64,000 bases of DNA from Melanopsichium pennsylvanicum (taxonomy: Eukaryota > Basidiomycota > Ustilaginomycetes > Ustilaginales): the NCBI GenBank assembly GCA_900208305.1, contig OAPG01000016.1, forward strand, positions 372,001 to 436,000, read 5' to 3'. How positions within the stretch are numbered: the first letter of the stretch is position 1; each line of letters opens with the position of its first letter. The translations under genes and the position numbers were made by a program. The notes beneath the pieces were generated by a model. The model was given only the letters and a program-made list of their open reading frames with translations, was not told where the DNA came from and searched no databases. Shown here piece after piece: positions 24,961-40,639 of this stretch.

Positions 24961-25004
24961 ATCAGGGCCCCCTGTATCGGCGGTTAGTCTCTTTAGCTGC
25001 CTTG

Positions 25005-26015
25005 TGTCAGCGGTCGCGTGCCAGAGATCCGAATTCCCGTGAGAAAGCGCGACTTGCCGGATTTCAGTGAATTCCGGCGGTTAAGCTTGGCCTCAACGGA
25101 TATCGAAGAGAATCCCGCGAGTGGCGATCTCTCGACGGATATCGGCTGACCGCTGGTGACACTCCGTACAGAGGTAACGCGGCAAGCTCGGACGGGGTAT
25201 TCGGTCGACGTGAGTGCCACGACGTCGACGGGATACTGCTGATGGCTGGGTTAGACCTCAGCCGTTGTTGCCGGTGGAGTTATGAGGGACTGGTTGTGGT
25301 GCCAGGCCCGCGGTTGAGGTTCCGCCTGTGGTTGAGGTGCTACAGCGTCGATTGTGGTGTCGACGACGTCTATACGTTGTTCTCCGTTCACCGACGGGGA
25401 CACAGACTATATGGATCGCAATAAATGGTATTGCGATGTGCGACGTGTGAAGAGTATGGTAAGTACGACGTACTGATAACTATGTGTGACTGAGATATAA
25501 GATAGAGTGGATGAGCTTCCGCTCATCCGATAGCGGGGAACAGAGTATTTATATATATGTATCGTGTGCGAGGTCCATCGGTACTGTACGACCTGCGTGC
25601 GTCGAGCTTGGACCCCCGCACGATAAGACTGCCCCCTAGTCCTTCGGCAGGGTGCTTCCAAGCACGCCCGCGTGCTCCCTCTCCGTTGCCCCCTGGGCGT
25701 CGATAGGCCCACGTGTCGTTCCGGCGTGGCGTTGGTCGCCGCCATCGCAGATGCTCCCCTTGCCGTCGATACCTTCGATATCCGGCGAGTCACTGCCACT
25801 CGCCGAATTTCCGTGAGATCCGTTGAGACCTGCTCTCTCACCGGATTTCGTCCGATTCAACTTCTCGGTCCTGCGCTAACCTTAAATCCCATGAGCCCAC
25901 CAATATCCACCAGATCTCCCTGAGATCCGTCAAGACATGCTCTCCCACCGGATCTCAGCCAATTCAACATCTCTGGTCTGCGCAGACCTCTTCCTTGGGA
26001 CCCACTCCCGTGACA
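25005..26015 (-). repeat. 3' LTR of element A
   Basis: 1,011 bp, complete. On the sense (minus) strand a TATA-like ATATATAAATA (about 25546-25561) is followed about 40 bases on by ATCCACTCTA (25502-25511), the segment complementary to the primer binding site. Contains two copies of the dispersed palindrome (25053-25080, 25798-25827). Confidence 0.95.
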
Positions 26016-26028
26016 CTACCCCCCCTTC
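26016..26028 (-). other. Polypurine tract of element A
   Basis: On the sense strand GAAGGGGGGGTAG directly abuts the 3' LTR start TGTCA, the normal place for the plus-strand primer. Confidence 0.85.
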
Positions 26029-26067
26029 GAGAGCCGAGCTCCGTTGAGGCTTAAATAGGGTCGGCGG

Positions 26068-27278
26068 ATGTTCCCCCCAACTTGTTCTTCCACCAACAGC
26101 GCTCTCCAATACGTCACCATGTCAACCCCTTCCCATACCGCCACTTCCGCTGCGTCATCGCGACCAGCGTCAACACGAATGCCTGCCCTCAGGGCAGAAG
26201 AGCCTGTGCGCCGTAGCGTCAGGCTTTGCGAACGCAACCCTGCCACTCGGGCAGTGGCAACACCTTCGGCTGTCGGCCTCGAGGCCACAGCTCCGTCGTC
26301 CCTTGCTGCTGGCGAACAGCCCCTCGAGATTGTTGCTGCCGAGCAGCTCGTTGCGTTGCGGTCGACGCCGCGGCCACTGGAACCGCTGTTTTTGGGAAAC
26401 GATGCCGCGGAGGAGGAGGAAGAGCGGATGGAGGCGATGGAGGTGGAGGAGTCGGTTGTAGGGAGGATTAGCAAGGTCGGGGAGGACCCTGTCGCTCCGC
26501 TCGTTGGGCATCATGTGCCCAACTACCTCGAGATTGCGCTGTGGGCGGAGTCGCTTATCGCTCCGGTGTTGCTGGTGTTCGTAGCGTGCGGGGCCTGGCC
26601 CCCTACTTGGGAGGTATCGGAGGGTTCCGTGACGGCCGGTCGGCTGCATCGTCTGGTCCTCCTTCGACTGACCGAGGGCTGCATGCCTTGGCCGAGCTGG
26701 CAATGCGCCCGATGCGCGAAGCTCGGAATACCGTAAGTACTACTGCTTCCTTCTCCGTTCGATACTTGTGTCCGTTCGACACGCATTGCTGACCGCGGTT
26801 CTCCCCTTTTTTCTGTCCCAGTTGTTTTGCGTCGGCTTTCGCTGACGTACTTTCTGCCGGTGGCAAGGGCAGGACTCCGCGCGCTTGTGTGCACTGCCAT
26901 CTTGGCGGCCACAAGAAATGCGTGCGTACTGTGAGGGCGTTGCCAACGACGGTATACGCTGGCGACGCTCCCCCTCGCCATCTGCATCGAGGCAAGCGTG
27001 GCGTCGAGCGAGCTCACGTCACGGGAGCGGGAGGTCGAGGATTGGGGGAGGTACGTGGGATCGACCGTGACTCGGATGGTGTGGCGGACCCCCACTGGGC
27101 GCATGCAATGCGCATCATTTGGTCTGCCTTGCCTCGTAGTCGGCGAGTCCCGGTGCTGACAATGATCGAGGAGTACTTCGATCGTCAGCGGCGAGTGCGG
27201 TCTATGCGCTCGCCATTCGAGGCTCTCGAGCCCTCTTTGGTGCCTGGGCCTTCGTCAGCCCCCGAGTCGGCGGAGTAG
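26068..27278 (+). CDS. Antisense accessory gene of element A, Zn2Cys6-like protein (2 exons)
   Basis: Lies between pol and the 3' LTR of element A on the strand opposite gag-pol. Exons 26068-26732 and 26822-27278; the 89-base intron has GTAAGT and a pyrimidine tract ending CCCAG. Product 373 residues (356 if it starts at the second ATG, 26119). The intron splits the cysteine cluster: CARCAKLGIPC spans the junction (C-x2-C-x6-C), and after about 20 residues comes CVHCHLGGHKKC (C-x2-C-x7-C). This is the spacing of the fungal Zn2Cys6 cluster except for a longer linker. N-terminal to it are an Arg-rich VRRSVRLCER stretch and an acidic run of glutamates. DNA binding is inferred from the cluster only. 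The intron and uninterrupted frame suggest a real gene. Confidence 0.7.
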
Positions 27279-27495
27279 TCTGTGCCCGCTGGCTGTGTCG
27301 ACTTGTTGCAATGGCAGTGCTTCGTTACCCATTGAACCTAGTGTGAGCTTGATTGTGTGACTTCCGGTGTGCAACAGGTGCGACGACTCTGAGAAATATA
27401 CTTGTCAACTCGCGTTGCCCATTAAGGCCTGAGATCCTTTGGATCATGCATTCCTCGGCGAATTTTGTGACTTTTAGGTTCTCGTTACCCCGCGA

Positions 27496-27520
27496 TTTTT
27501 TTTTTTTTTTTTTTTTTTCT
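27496..27520 (+). repeat. Poly-T run in element A
   Basis: About 25 consecutive T residues between the accessory gene and the chromodomain remnant. Confidence 0.9.
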
Positions 27521-27721
27521 CTGAGATCCGTTGAATTCTGCAGTACTCGGCGGATTTCGTGGAAATTCCCTGAGTCGGGGTCATTGTCCGGATCTCGATT
27601 CCTGCAACCTTCTACCTTCGCCGCTCGACATCGTCCTTGTCGAGCTTCGTCCTTGTCGAGCTTCTTACCATCTTACTCTCCTGTGATGGCATGCATCGCG
27701 GCTCGCAAGCTCCTCTTTGGC

Positions 27722-27832
27722 TTAGTGTCTCCGTCCCCCTGCCGATTCCTCATACTCCCGGATGAGGTCTGGGCAGTTGAGACAGTCTGTCGGTTCCCAC
27801 GAGGCTGCCTCCTCGGGGTAGCCCCTCTGATT
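27722..27832 (-). pseudogene. Out-of-frame integrase chromodomain remnant of element A
   Basis: Read in the frame next to pol, this stretch gives GYPEEAASWEP and CPDLIREYEES, the core of an integrase C-terminal chromodomain (usual form GYPEEEATWEP...L..EY). It is fused directly to the pol sequence ending GLPKSEG, so the roughly 280 residues normally between them are missing. Confidence 0.85.
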
Positions 27833-30575
27833 TAGGTAACCCTTCAATGAAATCCATCGAGATGGAATTCCAGGGTCTTGACGGCGTCGACAGCGGCTGC
27901 AAAAGGCCATATGGTCGGTGTCGCGGTGCTTTATATCGAGCGCACACTGGGCAGCTTGCTACATAGTCAGCAACCCATGCCGCCATATTCGGCCACCAAT
28001 AATGCCGCCTTGTGAGCTCGAGGGTGGCGTCTTGACCTGCATGGCCAGCGGTAGCGCCGTCGTGGCATTGGGACATTACCATGTATCTCAGGTGCTCCAC
28101 CGAGAGCGAGCGATCCTTTGCTTCGGCGGCACTCCGAGTGTTGCGTTGACCTTTCTTACCTGGTAATGTGACTCGTGGCACCACTAGCCGACCATCGCGA
28201 TACCACAGGCCATGTCTAACTTCGAAAGGTTGCTTCTGATGAAGCTCTGCGAGCTCAGCATCGAGCGGCTGGAAAGTCTTTACGAGTTGGACCAGCCCTC
28301 CCTCCGCAATATCGGACATTGTTGGTTTTAGCATATTTATTTGAGATTCGGCGAGTAGCTCTTTCTTGGCGAATTTTGGTGAAATCCGCCGAGTTGAGTC
28401 CACTCGGCGGTTTTCGAAATCCTCGGCAAATACTCGTGCCGGTAACAGCTGTCGGACGTTGTGTAGGTCTTCTTCTGCGGTCGGCTGCATATCACTTTGT
28501 CGTGTCAACGCATCTGGCTCTCCCGCTTTATCTCCCGGTCTGTATTGGAGTACGAAGTCGAAGTCAGCGAGTAACACTGACCATCGAGCCTGCCGACCTG
28601 TGATCTTCCGCTGAGACTTGAAGTATTTGAGCGCCTCGTGATCAGTGAGAATAATGAGCTGACTAGGTAGTCCTGCAAGCATGTGCTGCCAGTGGTTGAG
28701 ACAGACGACAACAGCGAGGAGTTCCTTGTCATGGATCTCGTAGTTCTTCTCCGCCGATGCCATCTTGCGCGAGTAGAATGCTATTGGGTGCCATCGTCCG
28801 TCGTGCTCTTGTTTAAGTACTCCAGCAAGAGCAAAGTCGCTTGCGTCCGTTTCCAACCGGGTAGGACGATGGTAATCGAAGTGTTTGAGAACCCCAGCGG
28901 TGGTGAACATTTCCACCAGCTTGTGGAAAGCAGCGCGAGCGTCGTCAGGGAGGTCGAACTTCTTGAATCGCTCTGTGGGCTTAACGAGGGAAGTGAGCGG
29001 TCTCGCTATACGCGCAAAGTGAGAGATGAATCTGCGATAGAAGTTGGCGAACCCGAGGAAGCGTTGGATGTCGTGTATAGACTCCGGCATCGGCCATTCC
29101 TTGATAGTCCTGATCTTGTCGGGGTCCATCTCGATACCTGACGGCTTGATGATATAGCCGAGAAACTCAACAGTATCGGTATGGAACACGCACTTCGAGA
29201 GTTTGGCGAATAACCGCCATACCTTGAGCCTACTGAGCACCGTCCTGACGTGCTCGATGTGTTCCTTCTCGTTGTCGCTGAAGATCAGGAAGTCGTCAAG
29301 GTATACTACCACGTATACGCCAATGATGTCGCGGTAGATGGTGTTGATGAGCGATTGGAAGTGCGCGGGCGCATTTGCCAATCCGAATGGCATGACCAGA
29401 TACTCATACAGTCCGAGTTGAGTTCCAAACGCGGTTTTCCATTCGTCCCCGTTGGCGATCCTAACCAAGTTGTAAGCTGCCTTTAGGTCCAGCTTGGTAT
29501 AGATCTTCGCTTTTCGTAGGAGGAACAGCTGCTCCTCGATTAAGGGCAGTGGTGCTCGGTTCTTAACCGTGACCTCGTTGAGACCGCGGTAGTCTACGCA
29601 GAGTCGCAGGCCGCCGTCCTTCTTAGGCACGAAGAGGACGGGGGATTGCGCCGGGCTCTTTGAGGGCCGAATGAATCCCTTCTCGAGATTCTCTTCGAGG
29701 TACTTCCTCAGCTCGGCCATCTCCTTAGGCCCCTTGAGATATAGCGGACCTTGAGGTGGCGTCAAACTGGGTAGTAGCTCGATGTGCAAGTCGTGCTTCG
29801 TGTGAGGGGGAAGCTTGTCCGCTTCGACCTCGTCGAATACATCCTTGAGGGGGTAGTACGGGGCTGGGATTTTGACGGCAGTGGGAGGCTCTTCTAGTGT
29901 TGTTTCCATCTCTATGCCTTTGTCGCCTCCCGTGGGGACAAAGCCAAACGACGGGAGCGACGTCGGAGGAGCGCTGATTAGCATGACCCCTATGGGCCCA
30001 TCCCGTAGTGCCGCCTGAACGAGCTCGTTGGCGTCGACAAACTTGTAGCCATGTACTACTAAGTTTGCTCGAGATTCGGCGGATCGGCCGGTCTTGGCGG
30101 ATTTCGGTGAAATCCCTTGAACGACCGCGTCTGACCGGATCTCGTTGGGTTTTCCGAAATCGAGCTGTCCAGTATCCCAATGGACCCTTGGCTGTAGGCG
30201 TCGTAGTTCATCGTACCCCAGGATGAAATCGTAGTCGCTAGCGTCAGCGACGGCGACCCTGAGCATCCCTAGGTGTTGTCCTCCTATGACTACGTCGACG
30301 TCAGCAGCGCTCGTGATTGTGAGGGAATGTCCGGTCACTCCGTGTACGGTTCTGTTTTTTATGGGTTTTGTGGTTATCGAGTACTTGCGAACAAACGGAG
30401 CTGAAACTATAGACAATGCAGCGCCGGTGTCGGCGAGAATGCTAGCAGGATGGTGGTTGACCGTACCTGCTAGCTCGAGTACTGAGGCACCGGAAGCTGC
30501 AGAGAAACATAATGAACAATCTTGACATATACAAGGTGATGGCAAAGGCGGTCTTAGAGCGATGCATGCCATCAT
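27750..30575 (-). CDS. pol: Pol polyprotein of element A, integrase core deleted
   Basis: 941 residues. Order: retropepsin with ADTGAALSIV (about residue 50); reverse transcriptase with LDLKAAYN, MPFGLANAP and YLDDFLIFSDN; RNase H with ETDASDFALAG and HDKELLAVV; integrase zinc domain with H-H-C-C (about 780-830; CPVCARYK); then MDFIEGLPKSEG, where the integrase catalytic core should begin. The frame instead runs into a different frame of the chromodomain and stops. Pol is in the -1 frame relative to gag and is most likely made by frameshifting upstream at 30593-30599, not from its own ATG, although that ATG overlaps the gag stop as ATGA. Ty3/gypsy pol order and chromodomain place it among chromoviruses. 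Confidence 0.92.
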   Translation of the reverse strand: MMACIALRPPLPSPCICQDCSLCFSAASGASVLELAGTVNHHPASILADTGAALSIVSAPFVRKYSITTKPIKNRTVHGVTGHSLTITSAADVDVVIGGQHLGMLRVAVADASDYDFILGYDELRRLQPRVHWDTGQLDFGKPNEIRSDAVVQGISPKSAKTGRSAESRANLVVHGYKFVDANELVQAALRDGPIGVMLISAPPTSLPSFGFVPTGGDKGIEMETTLEEPPTAVKIPAPYYPLKDVFDEVEADKLPPHTKHDLHIELLPSLTPPQGPLYLKGPKEMAELRKYLEENLEKGFIRPSKSPAQSPVLFVPKKDGGLRLCVDYRGLNEVTVKNRAPLPLIEEQLFLLRKAKIYTKLDLKAAYNLVRIANGDEWKTAFGTQLGLYEYLVMPFGLANAPAHFQSLINTIYRDIIGVYVVVYLDDFLIFSDNEKEHIEHVRTVLSRLKVWRLFAKLSKCVFHTDTVEFLGYIIKPSGIEMDPDKIRTIKEWPMPESIHDIQRFLGFANFYRRFISHFARIARPLTSLVKPTERFKKFDLPDDARAAFHKLVEMFTTAGVLKHFDYHRPTRLETDASDFALAGVLKQEHDGRWHPIAFYSRKMASAEKNYEIHDKELLAVVVCLNHWQHMLAGLPSQLIILTDHEALKYFKSQRKITGRQARWSVLLADFDFVLQYRPGDKAGEPDALTRQSDMQPTAEEDLHNVRQLLPARVFAEDFENRRVDSTRRISPKFAKKELLAESQINMLKPTMSDIAEGGLVQLVKTFQPLDAELAELHQKQPFEVRHGLWYRDGRLVVPRVTLPGKKGQRNTRSAAEAKDRSLSVEHLRYMVMSQCHDGATAGHAGQDATLELTRRHYWWPNMAAWVADYVASCPVCARYKAPRHRPYGLLQPLSTPSRPWNSISMDFIEGLPKSEGLPRGGSLVGTDRLSQLPRPHPGV
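28365..28393. repeat. Palindromic dispersed motif, copy in pol of element A
   Basis: CTTGGCGAATTT and AAATCCGCCGAG flank a five-base centre and pair at 10 of 12 positions. Similar copies occur at 25053-25080, 25798-25827, 27453-27478, 27546-27574 and 30093-30121 and in the right LTR. Here the copy is read through in frame by pol. Confidence 0.75.
30093..30121. repeat. Palindromic dispersed motif, second copy in pol of element A
   Basis: CTTGGCGGATTT, then CGGTG, then AAATCCCTTGA. Same family as the copy at 28365-28393, also read through by pol, in the region between protease and reverse transcriptase where sequence is poorly constrained. Confidence 0.7.
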
Positions 30576-30599
30576 TGCATCGCTCCAAGGTCGTTTCCC
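30557..30599 (-). promoter_or_regulatory. -1 ribosomal frameshift signal between gag and pol of element A
   Basis: On the sense strand the heptamer GGGAAAC (30599-30593) is in the gag frame as G-GGA-AAC. A 7-nt spacer follows, then a perfect 10-bp stem GAGCGATGCA/TGCATCGCTC with a 9-nt loop (30585-30557). After a -1 slip the pol frame is open without interruption. This is the classical X-XXY-YYZ plus stem layout. Confidence 0.88.
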
Positions 30600-31942
30600 T
30601 CGTCCTCGTGGTAGGGCTCGCCTGCGTCGTGATCGTCGGCGAAGAGGTTGGGGTCAAAGTGGTCTTCAAGACCGCCATCGTCTTCGCGATGGTCTTCAGC
30701 TCCGTCTCCTTCCTCTGGTGAGCCGTCCTGTGGTTTCTCCGACTCCAACACCACGTGCGCTCGCATCTGTGGTCCTGATGGTCTAGCCGGGTAAACCGTT
30801 GGCTTGGCGTCTGGACAGTTCCGCTGCCAATGCCCGGTCTTGCCGCAGACCCTACAAGCGTCGCTGTTAAATGTCGTCGGCCCGGGGACGACCCTTCGGT
30901 CGTCGCGAGGTCTCGGTGGTGCTTCCCGTACCGGCAGCTTCTGTGCCAGATGAGGGGGCAACGGTCGAGAGCCAGTTCTCTGGGGAATGCCCGGTTCGGT
31001 ATGAGCAGTCCTGATTGCTGGGGTTGGGGCGAAGCGGACAGCATTCTGCTGATGCCGCATACGCTGGCGATCAATGTCCTCGACCTCCCGGTACCAGGCC
31101 CACTGGTCTTCCGGTGGGTTACGCTCAAACTTCTCCTGAAGTGAGCGAGTAAGGCTCCCTCGGAAGAGGTCGATGACGAACTCAGGGTCCTCCATGTGGC
31201 ACTGAGCTGCCAGGTCTCGGAATTGCTCGACATGTTGCGTTGCTGCTCCTGGTGTGTTGGTAATAAGCCTCAACGCTAGGAGTTTGTTGTAGGCATCGAC
31301 CCTGTCGCTGCGCTGATTGTACAGCTCCCTGAGTCGGGTAGTGAAGTGGCTCCAATCATGGAAGAGCATCCCTTGACGATGCCGATTGACGCGGAGCTTA
31401 CCCTTCCACCACTCTCGAGCGGTGCCCTCGAGCTGGGCTGCCGTGTGTAAGATCATCGAAGTATGGTCGTACACACCATTAGCCTTGAACCAAGCGTCGG
31501 CCTCGAGAATGAAGATATCGATGTCGCGAGTGTCGAGCTTGGGGAATGGAGTCTTGAGGGCAGCGTGGGGCTGAGTGTCCTGTTCACTGCCAGTGCCGGT
31601 CCATGCCTCCGGGGTCACCGGTTTGACATACCGAGGTCCAGTAGGCGTAGCGTACTTCTCTTGGTCGGTGTACGCTCGTCGGTCGAGAATGTCGAAGGTG
31701 ACGGACCGAGGGTGTGGTCTAGTCGCAGGCGTGGGTGTCTCGAGACCACCGAGGTAGGACTCATCCGCCTGCTGCGAGGCTCGACGGGTCGGGGAGCTTA
31801 GATCATGCTCCCTGGCTCGTCGACCAGGGGATGGAGTCTCCTGTTGGTTGAGCCGAGCCTTGAGTGCGGCATTGTCTACCTGCTGCTGCTCAAGGAGGGC
31901 GATGAGGCGGTCGAGTCTGTCATGTAGTGCAGAGTCGGCCAT
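30572..31942 (-). CDS. gag: Gag of element A with CCHC zinc knuckle
   Basis: 456 residues beginning MADSALHDRL. The N-terminal heptad-like segment (DRLIALLEQQQVDNAALKARL) suggests a coiled coil; the middle holds the capsid-like retrotransposon gag domain with WWKGKLRVNRHRQG and YNQRSDRVDAYNKLLAL; near the C-terminus lies one zinc knuckle CRVCGKTGHWQRNC. The acidic C-terminal tail ends at the frameshift signal. Gag forms the virus-like particle and packages the RNA. The frame is intact. Confidence 0.92.
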   Translation of the reverse strand: MADSALHDRLDRLIALLEQQQVDNAALKARLNQQETPSPGRRAREHDLSSPTRRASQQADESYLGGLETPTPATRPHPRSVTFDILDRRAYTDQEKYATPTGPRYVKPVTPEAWTGTGSEQDTQPHAALKTPFPKLDTRDIDIFILEADAWFKANGVYDHTSMILHTAAQLEGTAREWWKGKLRVNRHRQGMLFHDWSHFTTRLRELYNQRSDRVDAYNKLLALRLITNTPGAATQHVEQFRDLAAQCHMEDPEFVIDLFRGSLTRSLQEKFERNPPEDQWAWYREVEDIDRQRMRHQQNAVRFAPTPAIRTAHTEPGIPQRTGSRPLPPHLAQKLPVREAPPRPRDDRRVVPGPTTFNSDACRVCGKTGHWQRNCPDAKPTVYPARPSGPQMRAHVVLESEKPQDGSPEEGDGAEDHREDDGGLEDHFDPNLFADDHDAGEPYHEDEGNDLGAMQ

Positions 31943-31971
31943 CTTGGTGAACTTGGGGCGTCGCTTGTACG

Positions 31972-31981
31972 ATCCACTCTA
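31972..31981 (-). other. Self-priming primer binding site of element A
   Basis: On the sense strand TAGAGTGGAT lies one base after the 5' LTR end. The same ten bases occur on the opposite strand inside the LTR (32481-32490), so the element's own RNA contains the complement ATCCACTCTA. It lacks the TGG start typical of a tRNA-primed site. Confidence 0.75.
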
Positions 31982-31982
31982 A

Positions 31983-32894
31983 TGTCAGCGGTCGCGTGCC
32001 AGAGATCCGAATTCCCGTGAGAAAGCGCAACTCGCCGGATTTCAGTGAATTCCGGCGGTTAAGCTTGGCCTCAACGGATATCGAAGAGAATCCCGCGAGT
32101 GGCGATCTCTCGACGGATATCGGCTGACCGCTGGTGACACTCCGTACAGAGGTAACGCGGCAAGCTCGGACGGGGTATTTGGTCGACGTGAGTGCCACGA
32201 CGTCGACGGGATACTGCTGATGGCTGGGTTAGACCTCAGCCGTTGTTGCCGGTGGAGTTATGAGGGACTGGTTGTGGTGCCAGGCCCGCGGTTGAGGTTC
32301 CGCCTGTGGTTGAGGTGCTACAGCGTCGATTGTGGTGTCGACGACGTCTATACGTTGTTCTCCGTTCACCGACGGGGACACAGACTATATGGATCGCAAT
32401 AAATGGTATTGCGATGTGCGACGTGTGAAGAGTATGGTAAGTACGACGTACTGATAACTATGTGTGACTGAGATATAAGATAGAGTGGATGAGCTTCCGC
32501 TCATCCGATAGCGGGGAACAGAGTATTTATATATATGTATCGTGTGCGAGGTCCATCGGTACTGTACGACCTGCGTGCGTCGAGCTTGGACCCCCGCACG
32601 ATAAGACTGCCCCCTAGTCCTTCGGCAGGGTGCTTCCGAGCACGCCCGCGTGCTCCCTCTCCGTTGCCCCCTGGGCGTCGATAGACCCACGTGTCGTTCC
32701 GGCGTGGCGTTGGTCGCCGCCATCGCAGATGCTCCCCTTGCCGTCGATACCTTCGATATCCGGCGAGTCACTGCCACTCGCCGAATTTCCGTGAGATCCG
32801 TTGAGACCTGCTCTCTCACCGGATTTCGTCCGATTCAACTTCTCGGTCCTGCGCTAACCTTAAATCCCATGAGCCCACCAATATCCACCAGATC
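31983..32894 (-). repeat. 5' LTR of element A, first part (912 bp)
   Basis: Matches the left LTR base for base except at five positions I found, up to AGATC (32890-32894), where element B begins. The LTR resumes at 40535. Confidence 0.95.
32488..32505 (-). promoter_or_regulatory. Perfect hairpin beside the predicted RNA start in the element A LTR
   Basis: GATGAGC and GCTCATC form a 7-bp stem around GGAA on the sense strand, between the TATA-like sequence (32524-32539) and the self-priming segment (32481-32490). It may lie at the 5' end of the genomic RNA; the exact start is unknown. Confidence 0.5.
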
Positions 32895-33324
32895 TGTTAA
32901 GGCTGTAGGGTCTAGATACCGCGGGCGGCTACAGCCGGGATGGAGGCTACGGGTACGGAGAGGTCGTAGGCGGGGCAACACAGGCGGTCGGGGGTCAGAG
33001 CACACTACTGCGTTGCTATAGAGCTAACTAAGTAATACATGCGACGAGGTCCGGAGGCAACCTCATGTCAGGCGGGGGCGGGGTGGTAAGGTACAGGAAC
33101 TATCGGTCACTTCCCACCGCGGCGTTACAATGTTAGGTTGCCGACGGTTGTATCCTACGTACGGAGGGACCAGCCGCGGTTGGGCGGTAGGAGGATCGTG
33201 TCAGGCCGACCGCTCCGCTGCAAGGGGTCCGGAGAGGGTCGGTCGGGGCCCGATCACAACGATCGCTCAATCGGGAGGGGGGCCGAGCACCCCCTCTTTG
33301 GACTCCGGTTGGTAGGCACTAACA
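32895..33324 (-). repeat. 3' LTR of element B
   Basis: 430 bp, TGTTAAGG...CACTAACA. Carries A or T where the right LTR has CpG at 32977, 33149, 33222 and 33258. Confidence 0.96.
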
Positions 33325-33333
33325 TTACCCCCC
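33325..33333 (-). other. Polypurine tract of element B
   Basis: GGGGGGTAA on the sense strand immediately before the 3' LTR, matching the GGGGGGGTAG tract of element A in position and form. Confidence 0.8.
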
Positions 33334-33627
33334 GGTTCAGGCCGACTGGTCCCCAGGCGGCTGATAGGACAGGAGGGCGAGGGGGGTCGTACTCCCTCAA
33401 CCTTAATCCGCGCCAGGGGCGCCTCTCTGTACAAGTTGCGACGCTCGTCTCGGCAATTTAATCGCGGATGCGCAGCAATGAGGCAATACCACCCACAATG
33501 CCTTGGACCGGCGGAATTGACTGTGCGCCATTGCTCGTGCGTAGCTATCGAGGAGGGATATAAGGATGGGGTTCAACGGGTCTTCCTTCTCAATTTCCCC
33601 CATTCTTCCCCATTCTTTTTTTTCACA

Positions 33628-35082
33628 ATGTCGTTGCCACCAGCAGACGCTTCCTTGGATTGTCTTTTTTTTGCAATGTCGTTGTCACCAGTAGACGCTC
33701 CCATGGATTCCCCGGCCGACAACCCGTCGGCCGGTGTCAGTACCGTTCCCCCTCCATCGCCTACGTCCGCGACGGCGGCAGCGTCGGCAACAGCAGCAGC
33801 AGCAACAACAACAACAGCACCAACAACAACAACAACGTTACCCGCTTCCGGAGGTGAGTCGATCGTGGTTCCGTCGTGATTCGGTTGCGGATGGGGGCCC
33901 AGAGGGCCTGACAACCACCGGTCGGTGCCGTGGAATGGGTTACTGACGTTTGTTCCCTCCCCCTTGTTTCGATTACGACAGATCGGCCGTCGGAGACCTC
34001 CGCTGGTCCCATCCGGGGGGTGCGCCGTTCTCCGCGTGCTCACCTTTCCCGGGGGGCCAACTCGGGCCGTCGCAAGCGCGCCGTGTGTCAACAGTCTGCC
34101 GATCCGTCGGCCATTCCTTCCTCTGCATCGACCAACACTTCCCTCGTCCTGGCGCCCCGGAATTCGATGCCGTGGTCGCGTCCTTCGGTTCCCATTGAGA
34201 TCACTCCGGAACTCGTTGGTGATGGTAAGTATTTGTTCCATTGCTGTGTTGATTGGGATCGCTACTGACGTTTGTGTTTCCGTGGCCGATACGACAGACC
34301 TTGCCCCGCTATGGGCCGAGACGTGGGGCGATTGCTACGCCTGCGTATGCGCCGGCGTTGCCTGTGAGCGGGCGGGAGGCGATCTCCGCTGCCGTCGGTG
34401 TCAGGGGCACCACGGGCAACCCTGCGACGCGGATATGCGCGGTAAGTATTTCCGTCGGGCGTCTGTCGCGATGTCTTGGGTGGTCGGCTGACTCTTGTTC
34501 CTCCTTTTGTTTTCCTCGACAGTCCCACCACTTGGCGGCGCCCAAGGTCCCCTCCAAATGAGGGTTTACGCGTGCTTGCTTGAGAGGTGGAGGTCCGGAG
34601 GGGTCGGTCGGCGTCGCCGCCCCCACCCCAACGTCAGGTTGTCGCTGAGGACACTTGGCGAGATCCCGGAGGAGGAGGAGGAACTGAGGGAGGAGGTGGC
34701 TCGGGTGGGCGCGGTGGGTCGGGAGCGGGAGGCGGCTCGCAAGCGAGCTAGGTCTCGCCCCAACCGTCCAGCCGAGGCTGCCCGAGAGCGGCGCCGCACT
34801 CGGGCGCGGGCCCAAGGCCAGCCGGAGGAGTCCGCTACGGGCCTGGGGGATCTGGGTGCGGCCGTAAGGCGTGCCGAGTCCCTCTTCCACGGGGTGCAGG
34901 AGGGGACTGAGTTATTTCAACAGGGGCTGGCCGACGTGGCTGCGCTGTTGCTGACAGAGTCGCTGAGGACCGGCGGCGAGCGAGAGCTCTGCCGGATCAG
35001 CAAGATCCAGCAACTGTCGCAGAACACGCGACAGCAGGTGGACGTGGTCTGGGCGTGGTTGGAGGGCTTCCTGAGGGACTAG
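33628..35082 (+). CDS. Antisense accessory gene of element B, Zn2Cys6-like protein (4 exons)
   Basis: Opposite strand to gag-pol, between pol and the 3' LTR. Exons 33628-33853, 33982-34224, 34298-34441 and 34523-35082; three introns, all phase 1, with GTGAGT or GTAAGT donors, TACTGAC or CTGAC branch sites and CGACAG acceptors. Product 390 residues. Ala/Thr-rich low-complexity N-terminus; basic VRRSPRAH...GRRKR stretch; cluster CYACVCAGVAC-x8-CRRCQGHHGQPC, i.e. C-x2-C-x6-C-x8-C-x2-C-x7-C, the Zn2Cys6 pattern; then a glutamate/arginine-rich coiled-coil-like region and a helical C-terminus. The whole model keeps one frame, strong evidence for a functional gene. The first 25 residues contain a near-duplication (MSLPPADAS / MSLSPVDAP). 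DNA binding and a role for the element are inferred. Confidence 0.8.
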
Positions 35083-35265
35083 CCCCGGGGCCCCTCCTCG
35101 AATGCATTTGTTTTCTTTTCTGTCGCTTGCGTGTGTGTGTGTCCGTGTGTGGGAGTGGGGGTGAGGGGAGCCCGACCGGGTCTCCTACTCCAGAGGTCGG
35201 GGACCGGAGGGGTTTTGGCTCCGGCGGGGGGGTCTCCCGACGGCGACCGTCGCTCGTATCCGTGC

Positions 35266-38200
35266 CTAACGCCGGGTAGGGGCCGGCTCGGTCGGGTTCG
35301 CGGCGTGGTACGCAGCGACCAGATCCGGGGCGCGGTCCACGTCTTCCGCCGGGACCCAGCTTGGGGGGTACCCTACCCAGGAGACCTTGTACTGTAGGCG
35401 TCCGGCGCGGCGGCGGGAGTCCAATACGCCCTCGACTTCGAAATCGGCGTAGTCGTCCTCCAGAGTAGTTGGTTGGGGGGCGTCGTTGGACTCCCTGACT
35501 CCGTCGGGGTATGGCTCCAGCATCTGTACGTGAAAGACGGGATGGACCTTCCACGACGGAGGCAGGAGGAGTCGGTAGGCTCGGTCGCTAATCACCTCGT
35601 CGACTTTGAACGGGCCGGCGAGGGGGTTGGAGAGCTTGTGGGAGGGTCGGTCGCTGCGGAGGTGCTTGGTACGGAGGAGCACCAGGTCCCCCCGGCGGAA
35701 CGAGACGTCGCTCCTGCGACGGTTAAACCACTTCGCAACGGCAAGGTTGGCTTTGGCGATGGCGTCCTGGCACACCCGCACTTTATCCGCCGACGGAACG
35801 TTGGAGGTGGCCGGGGGGATGGAGGGGTGTGCCCGAGGTGCAAATGTGAAGCAAGCTATAGCCGGGGCGATGGTTGTGGTCGCCGACGGTCTTTGGTTCA
35901 GCGCGAGCTGGGCTGTCGGCAGGAGGGTTGCCCAGTCGCTGTGGTCGTAGGCCGTATAGAAGCGGAGGAACAACTCCAGCGTCTGGTTGGCTCGCTCGGT
36001 CTGGCCATTTGTTTGAGGGTGGTAGGCCGACGAGTAAGACCCTTTAATCCGGAGGGCCCGGAGGAGTTCCGTCCAAACGGAAGCTACAAACGTGGTTCCT
36101 CGGTCAGATACAATGGTGTCCGGGAGGCCAAAGTATGAAAAGACGTAGCGGTGGAGCTGGTACGCCAAAGTCTCCGCCGTATCGGTTTTGTTTGCAGGAA
36201 TGAAGACCACAAACTTGGTGAGGCGGTCGACGACTACGAAAATGGAGTTGTAGGTGGTGCCGTTGGCAAGGGAGGGCGGGAGGTCAGTGATGTGGTCCAT
36301 GGTAATAGTGGACCAGGGCCGATCGGGAGGGACCGACGGGAGAAGGTAGCCGTGGGGTTTGTGACGGGGGTGTTTTGCCCTTCGGCAGGCCGCGCAAGAG
36401 GCGACATAGCTATTGGTGTCCTGCACCATGGTTGGCCAGTAAAAACGTTGACGCATGAGATGGAGGGTCATCTTGCGGCCAGGATGTCCCGCCGTAGGGT
36501 GGTCGTGCAGTAGGTGGAGTGCCTTGTCCCGTAATTGGGGTGGCAGGTAGACGTGACCCTCTGTGGTGTACGGGACACCATCGCGGACGGCAACGTTTGG
36601 GGGGAGGTTGGCCGCTTTCCGGAGGGTTTCGATCCACTCCGTAGGCAGGGGGTCCGAGGAGTGTACGCCGGCTGCCCTTGCAAACAAGTTTGCAGGGAGG
36701 AGAGTGGCTTGGTTGGCGGGGTCTGGGCGCGACGGTCCGTCGGGGAACAAGTCGTGCCGGCGACTCAGAGCGTCGGGGCGGACGGCCTCCTTACCCGGAC
36801 GGTAGTGGAGGACGAAGTCGAACTCAGCCAGGTCGGCTTGCCAGCGGGCTTGGCGACGGTTGAGTTGTCGCTTTGTCTGAAAATACTGGAGCGCCTGGTG
36901 GTCGGTGTAAATGAGGAACGGTCGGGTGAGGCCATGGAGGTAGTGTCTCCAAGCGCCGCAGGCGTCTACGATAGCCAGGAGTTCCTTGTCGTGGATTTCG
37001 TAGTTACGCTCCGCCGGGATCATCTTTCGCGACCAGTATGCCACAGGATGGAGGGTATGCGAGCGGCTGTTGGGCTCGGCGCTCGCGTCGGCGCCCGGCT
37101 GTGGGTGCCACTGCGACAGCACGGCGGCTACCACAGCGTCGCTCGCGTCTGTTTTGACGACGGTGTAGAGCGTTGGAGAGAAGTGCCGGAGGATAGGGGC
37201 AGAGGTGAACGCTTCTTTCAGCCGGTTGAAGGCTGCCGTTGCTTCCGGGGGCAGATCTACCTTTCCGGAGGCTCCTCCTTTCAGGAGGTTGGTGAGGGGG
37301 GCCGCTACACGAGAATAGTGGCGGATGAAGCGACGGTAGAAGTTGGCAAATCCGAGGAAGACTTGGATCTGTCGGATCGACTGTGGTGGCGGCCACTCCA
37401 AGACTGTACTGACCTTGGTTGGGTCCATGGAGAGGCCGTCGGGACTGACGAGGTAGCCGAGGAACTCGACGGAGTCGGTGTGGAATTTGCATTTGTCCGG
37501 AGCGCAATACAGCTGATGCTTCCGTAATCGATCCAACACTTGGCAGACGTGGTGGTGGTGGTCGGCCTCGTTGTCGGAGAAGACTAGGATGTCGTCCAGA
37601 TATACGATGACGGACATGTCTAAGAGATCCGACAGCACGTGGTTCATGAGCCGTTGGAAGGTCGCCGGAGCGTTGCAGAGGCCAAACAGCATGACGAGGT
37701 ATTCGTAGCTGCCGTAGCGCGTGCGGAATGCGGTCTTCCATTCGTGGCCGGGGGCGATCCGGAGGAGGTTGTAGGCACCCTTCAGGTCGAATTTAGTGAA
37801 GATCTTGGCCGTCGCCAGCCGATCAAGGTGTTCGGAGATGAGGGGGATCGGGTAGCGATCCTTGACGGTGATGGCGTTGAGGGCGCGGTAGTCCACACAC
37901 GGCCGGAGGCGACCGTCCTTCTTTGGTACAAAAAGAAGGGGCGCGGCAGCTTGGCTACTCGACGGTCGGATGAAGCCAATGGCCTGCATCTTCCGGAGGT
38001 AGTTCCGGAGCTCCTCTTGTTTGCGGTGCAACAGGGAGTAGAGTGCGCCGTAGGGAGGGGTTTTGCCAGCCTCCAGGTTGATCTCGTGGTCGTGTGGGCG
38101 GTGGGGAGGCAATTGGTCGGCCCTCTCGGCGTCGAAGACGTCGGCGTACTCGCGGTACTCTGGCGGTAGGACGGCGAGGTCGGTCGCGGAAGCTCGGAGG

Positions 38201-38823
38201 GGCAGTAGCTCCTCTTCCGGTTCTGGGAGGACCAGCAGGTCCTCCTCAGTGGAGACCAGCTGTCGCCGGCCGACCAAGTTGTGGAGTTCGTTCTTTTCGA
38301 TTTTGGGGTTGGAGGGCACCGTGACGGTGTGGGGGACCCGGAGGTCCCACGTAGGGAGGGTATAGTTTGGCTCCGGCCTGGCGGCCTCGATCCAATCCAT
38401 TCCCAACAGCACGTCGTGGGAGGTCATGGGGGTGATGAAGAGTCGGTGGCGTGAGGTGATGCAGTGGTTGTTGATGATGATATCCACCGCCGCGTGGCGA
38501 CTGATGGCGGCCAACATGCCCTGGAGGAATGTGGCGTGGACGGATTTACGGAGGGAGTGGGTAGGAATGTTGGCCGTTGCGACCATTTCGGGAGTAATGA
38601 AAGAAGCGGTGGCGCCGGTATCGAGCAAGGCAAGGCCTTGCGTGTCGCCGACGCTTACCAAGCATTCGTAGGTTGGTAAGGTAGGGTGTCGATGGATCCG
38701 GAGAACGGATCCCTCTTGCTCCACGACGGGAGTGTCGGTCCGGTGGGCTGCCCAGAATGCTGCGGCGAGCACCCGGAGCTGGCTTAGGTTGTCGATGGGT
38801 TTGGACCGAAGGAACCCATCGAC
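35266..38823 (-). CDS. pol: Pol polyprotein of element B (protease, RT, RNase H, integrase, chromodomain)
   Basis: Open from the gag/pol overlap to 35266, about 1,185 residues after the frameshift; no ATG is needed. Domains in order: retropepsin (LLDTGATASFI), reverse transcriptase (FDLKGAYNLLRI, LFGLCNAPATF, VIYLDDILVFSDN), RNase H (KTDASDAVVAAVL, IHDKELLAIV, YTDHQALQYF), integrase zinc domain (H-H-C-C, CAACRRAK), integrase core (VVDRLTKFVVF, VSDRGTTFVA, and HPQTNGQTERANQ with the catalytic Glu), GPF-type tail (AGPFKVDEVI) and a chromodomain (YKVSWVGYPPSWVPAEDV). All catalytic acids are visible and the frame has no stop, so this pol appears active. Chromodomains of this group direct integration to heterochromatin, which fits its position in a repeat island. 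Confidence 0.95.
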   Translation of the reverse strand, partial: VDGFLRSKPIDNLSQLRVLAAAFWAAHRTDTPVVEQEGSVLRIHRHPTLPTYECLVSVGDTQGLALLDTGATASFITPEMVATANIPTHSLRKSVHATFLQGMLAAISRHAAVDIIINNHCITSRHRLFITPMTSHDVLLGMDWIEAARPEPNYTLPTWDLRVPHTVTVPSNPKIEKNELHNLVGRRQLVSTEEDLLVLPEPEEELLPLRASATDLAVLPPEYREYADVFDAERADQLPPHRPHDHEINLEAGKTPPYGALYSLLHRKQEELRNYLRKMQAIGFIRPSSSQAAAPLLFVPKKDGRLRPCVDYRALNAITVKDRYPIPLISEHLDRLATAKIFTKFDLKGAYNLLRIAPGHEWKTAFRTRYGSYEYLVMLFGLCNAPATFQRLMNHVLSDLLDMSVIVYLDDILVFSDNEADHHHHVCQVLDRLRKHQLYCAPDKCKFHTDSVEFLGYLVSPDGLSMDPTKVSTVLEWPPPQSIRQIQVFLGFANFYRRFIRHYSRVAAPLTNLLKGGASGKVDLPPEATAAFNRLKEAFTSAPILRHFSPTLYTVVKTDASDAVVAAVLSQWHPQPGADASAEPNSRSHTLHPVAYWSRKMIPAERNYEIHDKELLAIVDACGAWRHYLHGLTRPFLIYTDHQALQYFQTKRQLNRRQARWQADLAEFDFVLHYRPGKEAVRPDALSRRHDLFPDGPSRPDPANQATLLPANLFARAAGVHSSDPLPTEWIETLRKAANLPPNVAVRDGVPYTTEGHVYLPPQLRDKALHLLHDHPTAGHPGRKMTLHLMRQRFYWPTMVQDTNSYVASCAACRRAKHPRHKPHGYLLPSVPPDRPWSTITMDHITDLPPSLANGTTYNSIFVVVDRLTKFVVFIPANKTDTAETLAYQLHRYVFSYFGLPDTIVSDRGTTFVASVWTELLRALRIKGSYSSAYHPQTNGQTERANQTLELFLRFYTAYDHSDWATLLPTAQLALNQRPSATTTIAPAIACFTFAPRAHPSIPPATSNVPSADKVRVCQDAIAKANLAVAKWFNRRRSDVSFRRGDLVLLRTKHLRSDRPSHKLSNPLAGPFKVDEVISDRAYRLLLPPSWKVHPVFHVQMLEPYPDGVRESNDAPQPTTLEDDYADFEVEGVLDSRRRAGRLQYKVSWVGYPPSWVPAEDVDRAPDLVAAYHAANPTEPAPTRR

Positions 38824-38835
38824 CCTTAGTTTCCC
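38791..38835 (-). promoter_or_regulatory. -1 ribosomal frameshift signal between gag and pol of element B
   Basis: Sense-strand heptamer GGGAAAC (38835-38829) is in gag phase as G-GGA-AAC, immediately before the gag stop TAA. After a 5-nt spacer comes a perfect 11-bp stem, GTCGATGGGTT/AACCCATCGAC, with an 11-nt loop (38823-38791). Pol is open in the -1 frame through this point. Textbook layout. Confidence 0.92.
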
Positions 38836-39920
38836 TCCGGGGGATCCTCCGAATCCGATAGGTCACTGTCGGGGTTGGAGGCTGACCCGTCATCCATGGG
38901 GTTGACGAGTATAGTCCCGGAATCGTTGTCGAATGAAATAGCATGTGCCCGGAGAGTTTGTGTTTGGGGTGCCTTCGGGCAGTCACGGGCCAAATGGTCG
39001 CTGCCACCGCAGCCAAAGCACTGCCCGTTGGTCCGTCGGTGCTGGCGGAGGCGTTCCGCCGCATCACGCATAGGGTCCTTGGCCGGTAGTGGAGGTCGTT
39101 CCATTTTGCGGGGTCCCTCCGGAGGCTCTCGTTTGGCCGTCACGGCTGGGAGGGGCGGTCGGTGTCGCAGCTGTGACTCCGAGGGTCTTGTCGTGGCCTC
39201 CTGTATCACCTGCATCCGGCGCTCCGTGACAATGGCGGCGTTGATGAAGTCACGGATGTCGGTCATCGGCACGTGGGTGAGCTTTTCCCGTAGGCGCGGC
39301 CGGAGGCTTTGTTCGAACAGCATCAACGCCTGCTGCTGGTCGGTCAGGTGCGATTTGGCCGTCAGCGACATGAACTCCGCCGCGTGCTCCGATACCGATC
39401 CCTTCTGGCGGAGGGCATTCAGTTGGAGGCGTGCGGTGTAGCTGGGGTCGGGATCGCCATGGACGCGACGGAGGTCGGCGCAAAAGGCCCTCCAGGAGCT
39501 CATCCAGGGCGGATCCTCCCCCTCCTGTTGTCGCACATTGCGAATGCGGGTTCGTGGTTTGCCCGTCATGTTGCCGATGGCAAACATGATGCGACAGGCA
39601 TCCGTCGGAAACTTGGAGGGATTAGCCTCGAAGTTGAGTTCGCATTGATCCAAGAAGTCCTCCAGTTTGTCTTGGCTGCCGTCCCATTCCGGAGCCTGGA
39701 GTCGAATCTCTGGCTCGCGGGGCGCGGCCTCCACGTAGACGGGGGCTACGGTTGGCGGGGGGACCTGGGCAGCGGTTGCTCCTTGGTAGTGCTGGGAAGA
39801 CTCCGGTCTAGGTTGATCCCCCCTGGGGAAGAAGGCGGCCTCTAGCAGAGCGGTAATGCGCCGCTGTTGTTCAGAGGTTTCACGCAGAAGCGCCAGGATA
39901 TCCACTTGCCCTTGGACCAA
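38826..39920 (-). CDS. gag: Gag of element B with CCHC zinc knuckle
   Basis: About 364 residues are shown from a TTG codon; the frame is open further upstream to the LTR but holds no ATG. It contains a heptad-like N-terminal part (LALLRETSEQQRRITALL), the capsid-like gag domain (LEDFLDQCELNFEANPSKF), and one zinc knuckle CFGCGGSDHLARDC near residue 300, then an acidic tail ending at the frameshift heptamer. The only suitable upstream ATG (40060-40058) lies in another frame, which joins the gag frame only if one base is added in an eight-base C run (40016-40023). So this copy may have lost its normal gag start by homopolymer slippage, or the run is a sequencing error. Confidence 0.85.
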   Translation of the reverse strand: MVQGQVDILALLRETSEQQRRITALLEAAFFPRGDQPRPESSQHYQGATAAQVPPPTVAPVYVEAAPREPEIRLQAPEWDGSQDKLEDFLDQCELNFEANPSKFPTDACRIMFAIGNMTGKPRTRIRNVRQQEGEDPPWMSSWRAFCADLRRVHGDPDPSYTARLQLNALRQKGSVSEHAAEFMSLTAKSHLTDQQQALMLFEQSLRPRLREKLTHVPMTDIRDFINAAIVTERRMQVIQEATTRPSESQLRHRPPLPAVTAKREPPEGPRKMERPPLPAKDPMRDAAERLRQHRRTNGQCFGCGGSDHLARDCPKAPQTQTLRAHAISFDNDSGTILVNPMDDGSASNPDSDLSDSEDPPEGN

Positions 39921-40015
39921 GGTGGTCAGGGCGGCGGGCGGTTTGCCCGAGGGTGCAACAACGCTGGCAGGCTCGTCTCCGCTGGGGGAGATGGTGGGGG
40001 CGTCTCCCTCCGCTT

Positions 40016-40023
40016 GGGGGGGG
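40016..40023 (-). other. C8 homopolymer at the frame break in the gag 5' part of element B
   Basis: Eight C on the sense strand. The ATG frame upstream and the gag frame downstream differ by -1 across this run. Confidence 0.6.
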
Positions 40024-40088
40024 CGTCCGTTTGGTTTCGTCGGTTGGAGCGTGTACTCATCTTGGTTACGACGTCGTCCCGTGGGGAG

Positions 40089-40098
40089 GTCGCATGTA
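40089..40098 (-). other. Self-priming primer binding site of element B
   Basis: Sense-strand TACATGCGAC, one base after the 5' LTR end. The same ten bases occur on the plus strand inside the LTR (40241-40250 and 33036-33045), so the element RNA contains the complement GTCGCATGTA. Same layout as in element A. Confidence 0.75.
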
Positions 40099-40099
40099 A

Positions 40100-40529
40100 T
40101 GTTAAGGCTGTAGGGTCTAGATACCGCGGGCGGCTACAGCCGGGATGGAGGCTACGGGTACGGAGAGGTCGTAGGCGGGGCGACACAGGCGGTCGGGGGT
40201 CAGAGCACACTACTGCGTTGCTATAGAGCTAACTAAGTAATACATGCGACGAGGTCCGGAGGCAACCTCATGTCAGGCGGGGGCGGGGTGGTAAGGTACA
40301 GGAACTATCGGTCACTTCCCACCGCGGCGTTACAATGTTAGGTTGCCGACGGTCGTATCCTACGTACGGAGGGACCAGCCGCGGTTGGGCGGTAGGAGGA
40401 TCGTGTCAGGCCGACCGCTCCGCTGCGAGGGGTCCGGAGAGGGTCGGTCGGGGCCCGATCACGACGATCGCTCAATCGGGAGGGGGGCCGAGCACCCCCT
40501 CTTTGGACTCCGGTTGGTAGGCACTAACA
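40100..40529 (-). repeat. 5' LTR of element B
   Basis: 430 bp; keeps CpG at 40182, 40354, 40427 and 40463 where the left copy has CA or TG. Confidence 0.96.
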
Positions 40530-40534
40530 AGATC

Positions 40535-40633
40535 TCCCTGAGATCCGTCGAGACATGCTCTCCCACCGGATCTCAGCCGATTCAACATCTCTGGTCTGCG
40601 CAGACCTCTTCCTTGGGACCCACTCCCGTGACA
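40535..40633 (-). repeat. 5' LTR of element A, second part (99 bp)
   Basis: Continues the A LTR beyond the AGATC duplication and ends TGACA, followed by the CCTTG target duplication. Confidence 0.95.
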
Positions 40634-40639
40634 CCTTGC

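Follow-up and report, generated by a model that had tools for sequence, protein, structure and literature searches.

A Spliced Antisense Gene With a Cysteine Cluster in a Ty3/gypsy Element of Melanopsichium pennsylvanicum and a Second Antisense Gene in the Element That It Interrupts

Introduction

Element B, a Ty3/gypsy element in the genome of the smut fungus Melanopsichium pennsylvanicum, carries a four-exon gene on the strand opposite its gag-pol, and the element that it has interrupted, element A, carries a spliced antisense gene of its own. The spliced frame of the B gene, its splice and branch sites and the cysteines encoded by its third exon are retained from copy to copy of the element, and selection has acted on the frame; we regard the gene as almost certainly genuine. 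Among LTR elements, antisense accessory genes have been described chiefly in plants and in retroviruses such as HTLV-1, and we know of no settled function for those of plants. The window analyzed here is a stretch of 64,000 nucleotides that forms part of contig C16 of the 21.1-Mb M. pennsylvanicum genome, and coordinates refer to it unless another contig is named.

Element B and Its Nesting in Element A

Element B, a Ty3/gypsy element with a chromodomain, occupies 32895..40529 with gag-pol on the minus strand. It looks intact. A target duplication of 5 bp flanks it (AGATC, at 32890-32894 and again at 40530-40534), and it is bounded by a 3′ LTR of 430 bp (32895..33324, minus strand) and a 5′ LTR (40100..40529, minus strand) that differ at 4 of 430 sites. 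The gag frame (38826..40133, minus strand; 435 aa from stop to stop) contains a Retrotrans_gag domain and a CCHC knuckle that scores slightly below its cut-off. The pol frame (35266..38862, minus strand; 1198 aa) encodes protease, RT, RNase H, integrase, SH3, and chromodomain, with the protease-RT-RNase H-integrase-chromodomain order of the Ty3/gypsy chromodomain elements. Abutting the 3′ LTR at 33325..33333 (minus strand) is the probable polypurine tract, which reads GGGGGGTAA in the sense orientation.

Element A (25005..40633, minus strand) is split within its 5′ LTR by element B. It is flanked by its own target duplication (CCTTG at 25000-25004 and 40634-40638), and its two 1011-bp LTRs show 7 differences when the B insertion is excluded from the comparison. 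The window copy of A looks broken in pol, where the minus-strand frame at 27750-30653 stops before the integrase core. Elsewhere in the genome (L009; G000:C22:253590-253982 and 261734-262213), the two halves of an A-type antisense gene flank a B copy, an arrangement suggestive of a B insertion within the antisense gene of a third element family.

Structure of the Element B Antisense Gene

The B gene lies on the plus strand between pol and the 3′ LTR, the placement of an antisense additional ORF (aORF-3R). Exon 1 (33628..33853), exon 2 (33982..34224), exon 3 (34298..34441), and exon 4 (34523..35082, ending in the stop TAG) are separated by three phase 1 introns (33854..33981, 34225..34297, and 34442..34522) with donors GTGAGT, GTAAGT, and GTAAGT, respectively. 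All acceptors read CGACAG, and CTGAC begins 39, 33, and 35 nt from the respective intron end. A first-pass annotation of the same sequence had joined these four exons into one 390-residue frame with three phase 1 introns, consensus donors, CTGAC branch sites, and CGACAG acceptors, and both the exon joins with their frame and every one of these intron features were reproduced. The start that it had given, at 33628, fared less well. The frame is indeed open from that ATG, but conservation places the start at a second in-frame ATG downstream. Because 33 of 34 aligned copies retain ATG 33676 (L032 has ATT), whereas the 48-50 nt stretch in which ATG 33628 sits is absent from 12 of them, the conserved start is taken to be 33676 and the protein to comprise 374 residues rather than 390. 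Exon 4 encodes an arginine- and glutamate-rich stretch and, as judged by eye, a helical-looking C-terminus.

Approximately 350 bp of internal sequence separates the 430-bp LTR from the B start codon. A TATAAGG motif at 33559..33565 (plus strand), found in all 19 copies for which flanking sequence was available, is a candidate antisense promoter element. Its counterpart in element A, CTTAAATAG, precedes the A-type ATG in all 29 aligned copies, and both motifs lie inside the element beside the polypurine tract and outside the LTR. The simplest reading is that the B and A antisense genes would each have their own promoter, as in maize Grande, for which a published account describes gene23 as an antisense ORF with its own promoter (PMC7264820).

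Exon 3, which holds the cysteine cluster, can be skipped without loss of frame because it is 144 nt long and flanked by introns of the same phase (phase 1-1); skipping yields a product of 326 aa. Public gene models of B often omit this exon: among seven B-type database proteins, four (P0001-P0004) skip it, P0005 and P0007 contain it, and P0006 is read differently. These models lend some substance to the idea that the true product lacks exon 3 and that the main B protein therefore has no cysteine cluster, but the exon 3 frame, its splice sites, and its six cysteines are kept in 34 of 34 copies and two of the models include the exon, so that we consider the idea quite improbable. One of the two, P0007 (MEPE_01710; G000:C3:506576-506896), joins B exons 2-3 to an SNase/Tudor protein; it may represent a B fragment upstream of a host gene, and is perhaps a prediction artefact or perhaps a host-recruited exon.

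Conservation and Selection Across Copies of Element B

Matches to the B antisense region were found at no fewer than 44 places in the genome (40 of 90 candidates scored), and the alignment used here comprises the window copy and 33 of the other near-complete copies (n = 34). Random stops in other copies had been named by the first-pass annotation as the observation that would speak against a gene; instead, the spliced reading frame runs uninterrupted through 33 of the 34, the exception being L022 with a 5-nt deletion. An exon 4 stop was seen in 2 of 42 genomic matches, namely L022 and C16:2819, the latter outside the aligned set. GT-AG boundaries are present at 101 of 102 introns (intron 1 of L027 has AT), CTGAC falls within the last 45 nt of all 102, and every aligned copy has the six cysteines in register. 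The earlier proposal that the antisense gene belongs to the element is supported, and the gene is multi-copy.

Of nine indel events in the exons, eight have lengths divisible by three, as against 2 of 10 in the leader immediately before the conserved start codon and none of 4 in the introns; six of the eight fall in a trinucleotide-repeat tract (33803-33834), and the argument is weaker than it looks because slippage by three is expected in such a tract. Substitutions provide a second line of evidence. Relative to the window copy there are 235 distinct changes (94 synonymous, 139 nonsynonymous, and 2 stops), which were redistributed in 5000 shuffles among sites matched for base and CpG context. 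Synonymous changes exceed expectation over the whole frame (94 versus 75.0, P 0.0046), in exon 2 (32 versus 22.3, P 0.009), and in exon 4 (32 versus 23.1, P 0.023), and no excess was obtained in a control in which exon 4 was read in the wrong frame. In the same shuffle test, exons 1 and 3 taken singly gave no significant excess, and the 2 stop changes did not differ significantly from the 5.0 expected (P 0.12).

A shadow of coding on the other strand is a barely credible source of this pattern. An env-like sense frame (33573-34334, minus strand; 253 aa) is open in the window copy, but over 150 random pairs its dN/dS is 0.97 across exon 1 and 1.68 across exon 2, where the antisense frame gives 0.50, and the sense frame was rejected on those values.

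Constraint on the B gene is uneven with age. Across 36 pairs with dS>0.1 its dN/dS is 0.40, and over all pairs of 33 copies mean dN is 0.027 and mean dS 0.047. In 13 young sequences that have a full pol, the antisense gene has a pN/pS of 0.79, compared with 0.45 for pol. The gene resembles an aORF-3R in being kept in most copies with coding constraint, albeit weakly in young ones; it is real but fast-evolving, or relaxed in recent copies.

The Antisense Gene of Element A and Its Relatives

The first-pass annotation had missed both the insertion of B into the LTR of A and the antisense gene that A itself carries. The latter (26119..27278, plus strand) lies on the strand opposite A's gag-pol and consists of two exons (26119-26732 and 26822-27278) separated by a phase 2 intron (26733-26821); its spliced product of 356 residues is identical to database protein P0008 (MEPE_05597). 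In an alignment of the window copy with 28 of 40 other matches (n = 29), all exon indels are multiples of three, the intron varies in length from −19 to +4, and the donor GT is present in 28 of the 29. Synonymous changes number 181 versus 115.0 expected, a value reached in none of 5000 shuffles, and the 217 pairs with dS>0.2 yield a dN/dS of 0.26. The A antisense gene is clearly under purifying selection and is better constrained than that of B. An in-frame stop occurs in 13 of the 29 copies. In eight of them, some mutually distant, it falls at the same codon (index 260, window numbering; the count includes L074, which is seven codons shorter), and recurrent mutation, shared descent, and a meaningful truncation are possible explanations.

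A database search with the A-type protein returned 37 proteins, 24 from M. pennsylvanicum, 12 from Ustilago (hordei, nuda, tritici, and sp. UG-2017a), and one other. Three of these, P0042-P0044, probably share the A-type intron site, because their last residues are GIP or GTP, exactly the point at which a GTAAGT donor read through in A's phase gives TAA. The two-exon antisense gene of a third element family (L076) encodes a protein that shares 39% identity with P0008 across 210 residues (E 6e-36); the intron lies at the same codon in both genes, and the RTs of the two elements are 81% identical. Viral contigs gave 10 pattern matches to the A-type profile, none of which was confirmed. Relatives of the B protein were retrieved in two database searches (7 proteins, with the best 7992 candidates by shared words scored, and 6 proteins), all from M. 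pennsylvanicum. Homology between the A-type and B-type proteins is not claimed: hhalign gave a probability of 0.7% in a comparison limited by shallow profiles, and the B protein matched that of the third family at E 4.9.

These comparisons bear on whether the antisense gene might be a captured passenger with no role for the element, in which case the weak constraint on B would reflect recent spread. The ratio of 0.79 in young copies and the restriction of B-type homologs to M. pennsylvanicum are what such a passenger might show. Against it stand the lower ratio of the older B pairs, the persistence of the A-type gene with the same intron between elements whose antisense proteins have diverged so much further than their RTs, and the finding that genomic matches to B exon 3 all look element-derived, with no host source seen among them. 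A passenger therefore seems a rather unlikely explanation. A very improbable one is that the transcript acts as RNA, pairing with gag-pol RNA to dampen the element while the frame is incidental. Antisense RNA functions are discussed for LTR elements in one paper (PMC7264820), but the B gene does not overlap pol, it retains its frame, its splice and branch sites, and its cysteines along with an excess of synonymous change, and the A-type dN/dS again speaks for a protein.

In neither family has a copy lost its intron or introns (0 of 34 for B and 0 of 29 for A), which agrees with the earlier proposal that the introns persist through transposition. Such survival is expected if only gag-pol RNA is reverse transcribed.

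The Cysteine Cluster

The cluster encoded by B exon 3, CYACVCAGVACERAGGDLRCRRCQGHHGQPC, has the spacing C-x2-C-x6-C-x8-C-x2-C-x7-C, a pattern found a single time across the six frames of the window and in none of 60 windows simulated with its dinucleotide composition. The Zn2Cys6 domain (PF00172) has the spacing C-x2-C-x6-C-x5-12-C-x2-C-x6-8-C, and members of this family carry basic residues between the second and third cysteines. The spacing of B is common to such proteins and lies within their range in all 34 copies. However, B differs from them in having an extra cysteine and in the position of the cluster, which is central rather than N-terminal; on inspection, it reads VCAGVA between Cys2 and Cys3, with zero basic residues. 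The B protein has no match in Pfam at E≤10. The first-pass annotation had assigned the cluster to the fungal Zn2Cys6 type, and of this assignment the spacing holds but the domain identity does not, so that membership of the family was rejected. Judged from its sequence, the B cluster is a zinc-cluster-like motif that may work like a Zn2Cys6 domain but is not established as one, and the product is a putative DNA-binding regulator.

The A-type and B-type proteins both contain two C-x2-C...C units, the third cysteine loop of the A-type being 18-20 residues and hence outside the Zn2Cys6 range. P0008 scores 8.3 bits against the Zn_clus model (PF00172), below the cut-off of 21. NCBIfam gave no match for the A-type protein or for P0005, and a search of the PDB by sequence found nothing at E≤10. 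AlphaFold2 models were of low pLDDT (58.4 for B exon 3 and 42.2 for the A-type), with a best Foldseek E of 5.0.

Possible Role of the Antisense Protein

We can picture the B gene working as follows. RNA polymerase II would start at the TATA element a few hundred bases inward of the 3′ LTR, and antisense transcription would run against gag-pol, ending before or within the pol tail. Removal of the three introns would give an mRNA for the 374-residue protein, in which exon 3 would supply a zinc-binding cysteine cluster amid basic, low-complexity, helical stretches. Most likely the protein would be nuclear and act on the element's own DNA or chromatin, its simplest role being to regulate LTR transcription, as HBZ does in HTLV-1. 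The introns would stay because the RNA that is reverse transcribed represents the opposite strand. We would give roughly even weight to belief and doubt in the whole proposal, that is, an antisense accessory gene with its own internal promoter and a spliced mRNA encoding a nuclear zinc-binding regulator of the element.

The protein might instead serve integration, by tethering the pre-integration complex to chromatin or influencing site choice, rather than transcription. Nuclear accessory roles are suggested for plant antisense ORFs in one paper (PMC7264820), and B pol has its own chromodomain, so that targeting evidently matters to B; yet that same chromodomain already equips pol for the task, and the antisense protein bears no pointer to integrase. 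We judge an integration role unlikely, and the preferred reading remains that of a transcriptional regulator.

Relation to Known Antisense Genes

HBZ has a spliced form and is a bZIP protein. HBZ of HTLV-1 and APH-2 of HTLV-2 are presented in two papers as antisense accessory genes encoding nuclear regulators (PMC11963269; PMC7264820). The likeness to B has limits: the HBZ promoter lies inside the 3′ LTR, whereas the candidate B promoter is in the internal region, and where HBZ has a bZIP domain B has a cysteine cluster, no bZIP being found in the B protein by Pfam at E≤10.

Plant antisense ORFs share with the B gene their place, their strand, their presence in most copies, and a suspected nuclear or DNA-binding role; one study proposes nuclear action on the element (PMC11963269). 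B differs in its fungal host, in an unrelated-looking protein with a cysteine cluster, and in having three evidently constrained introns; the Retand paper does not use the word “intron”.

Among fungi, Boty/BcGypsy1 of Botrytis cinerea, an ascomycete unlike the host of B, is likewise a gypsy-type element with an extra antisense gene, brtn, reportedly the subject of Zhao et al. in 2011. The gene is named in two papers (PMC7264820; PMC8365987). No antisense gene of an LTR element from a smut or other basidiomycete was described in the titles and abstracts returned by searches of an open-licence library, and “antisense” occurs 0 times in an article on smut LTR elements (PMC9603552). As far as those searches show, what is new is a smut as host, the conservation of the introns, the cysteine clusters, and the presence of two unrelated antisense genes in nested elements.

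Conclusion

Two adjoining element families in one small fungal genome carry antisense genes that are present in dozens of copies and whose introns are conserved, and the A-type gene has homologs across smuts. A retroelement can evidently carry a gene with introns when that gene is encoded on the opposite strand. More broadly, smut gypsy elements could at least twice have acquired, at the same antisense position, unrelated spliced genes for cysteine-cluster nuclear regulators, fungi thus having reached an HBZ-like strategy independently, with exon 3 of B acting as a cassette switch; we find this doubtful, though worth entertaining. If it were true, inclusion or skipping of exon 3 could toggle between zinc-bearing and zinc-free forms of the B protein, and splicing itself would distinguish antisense mRNA from genomic RNA. 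With these elements, the function of antisense accessory genes becomes testable in a small genome.
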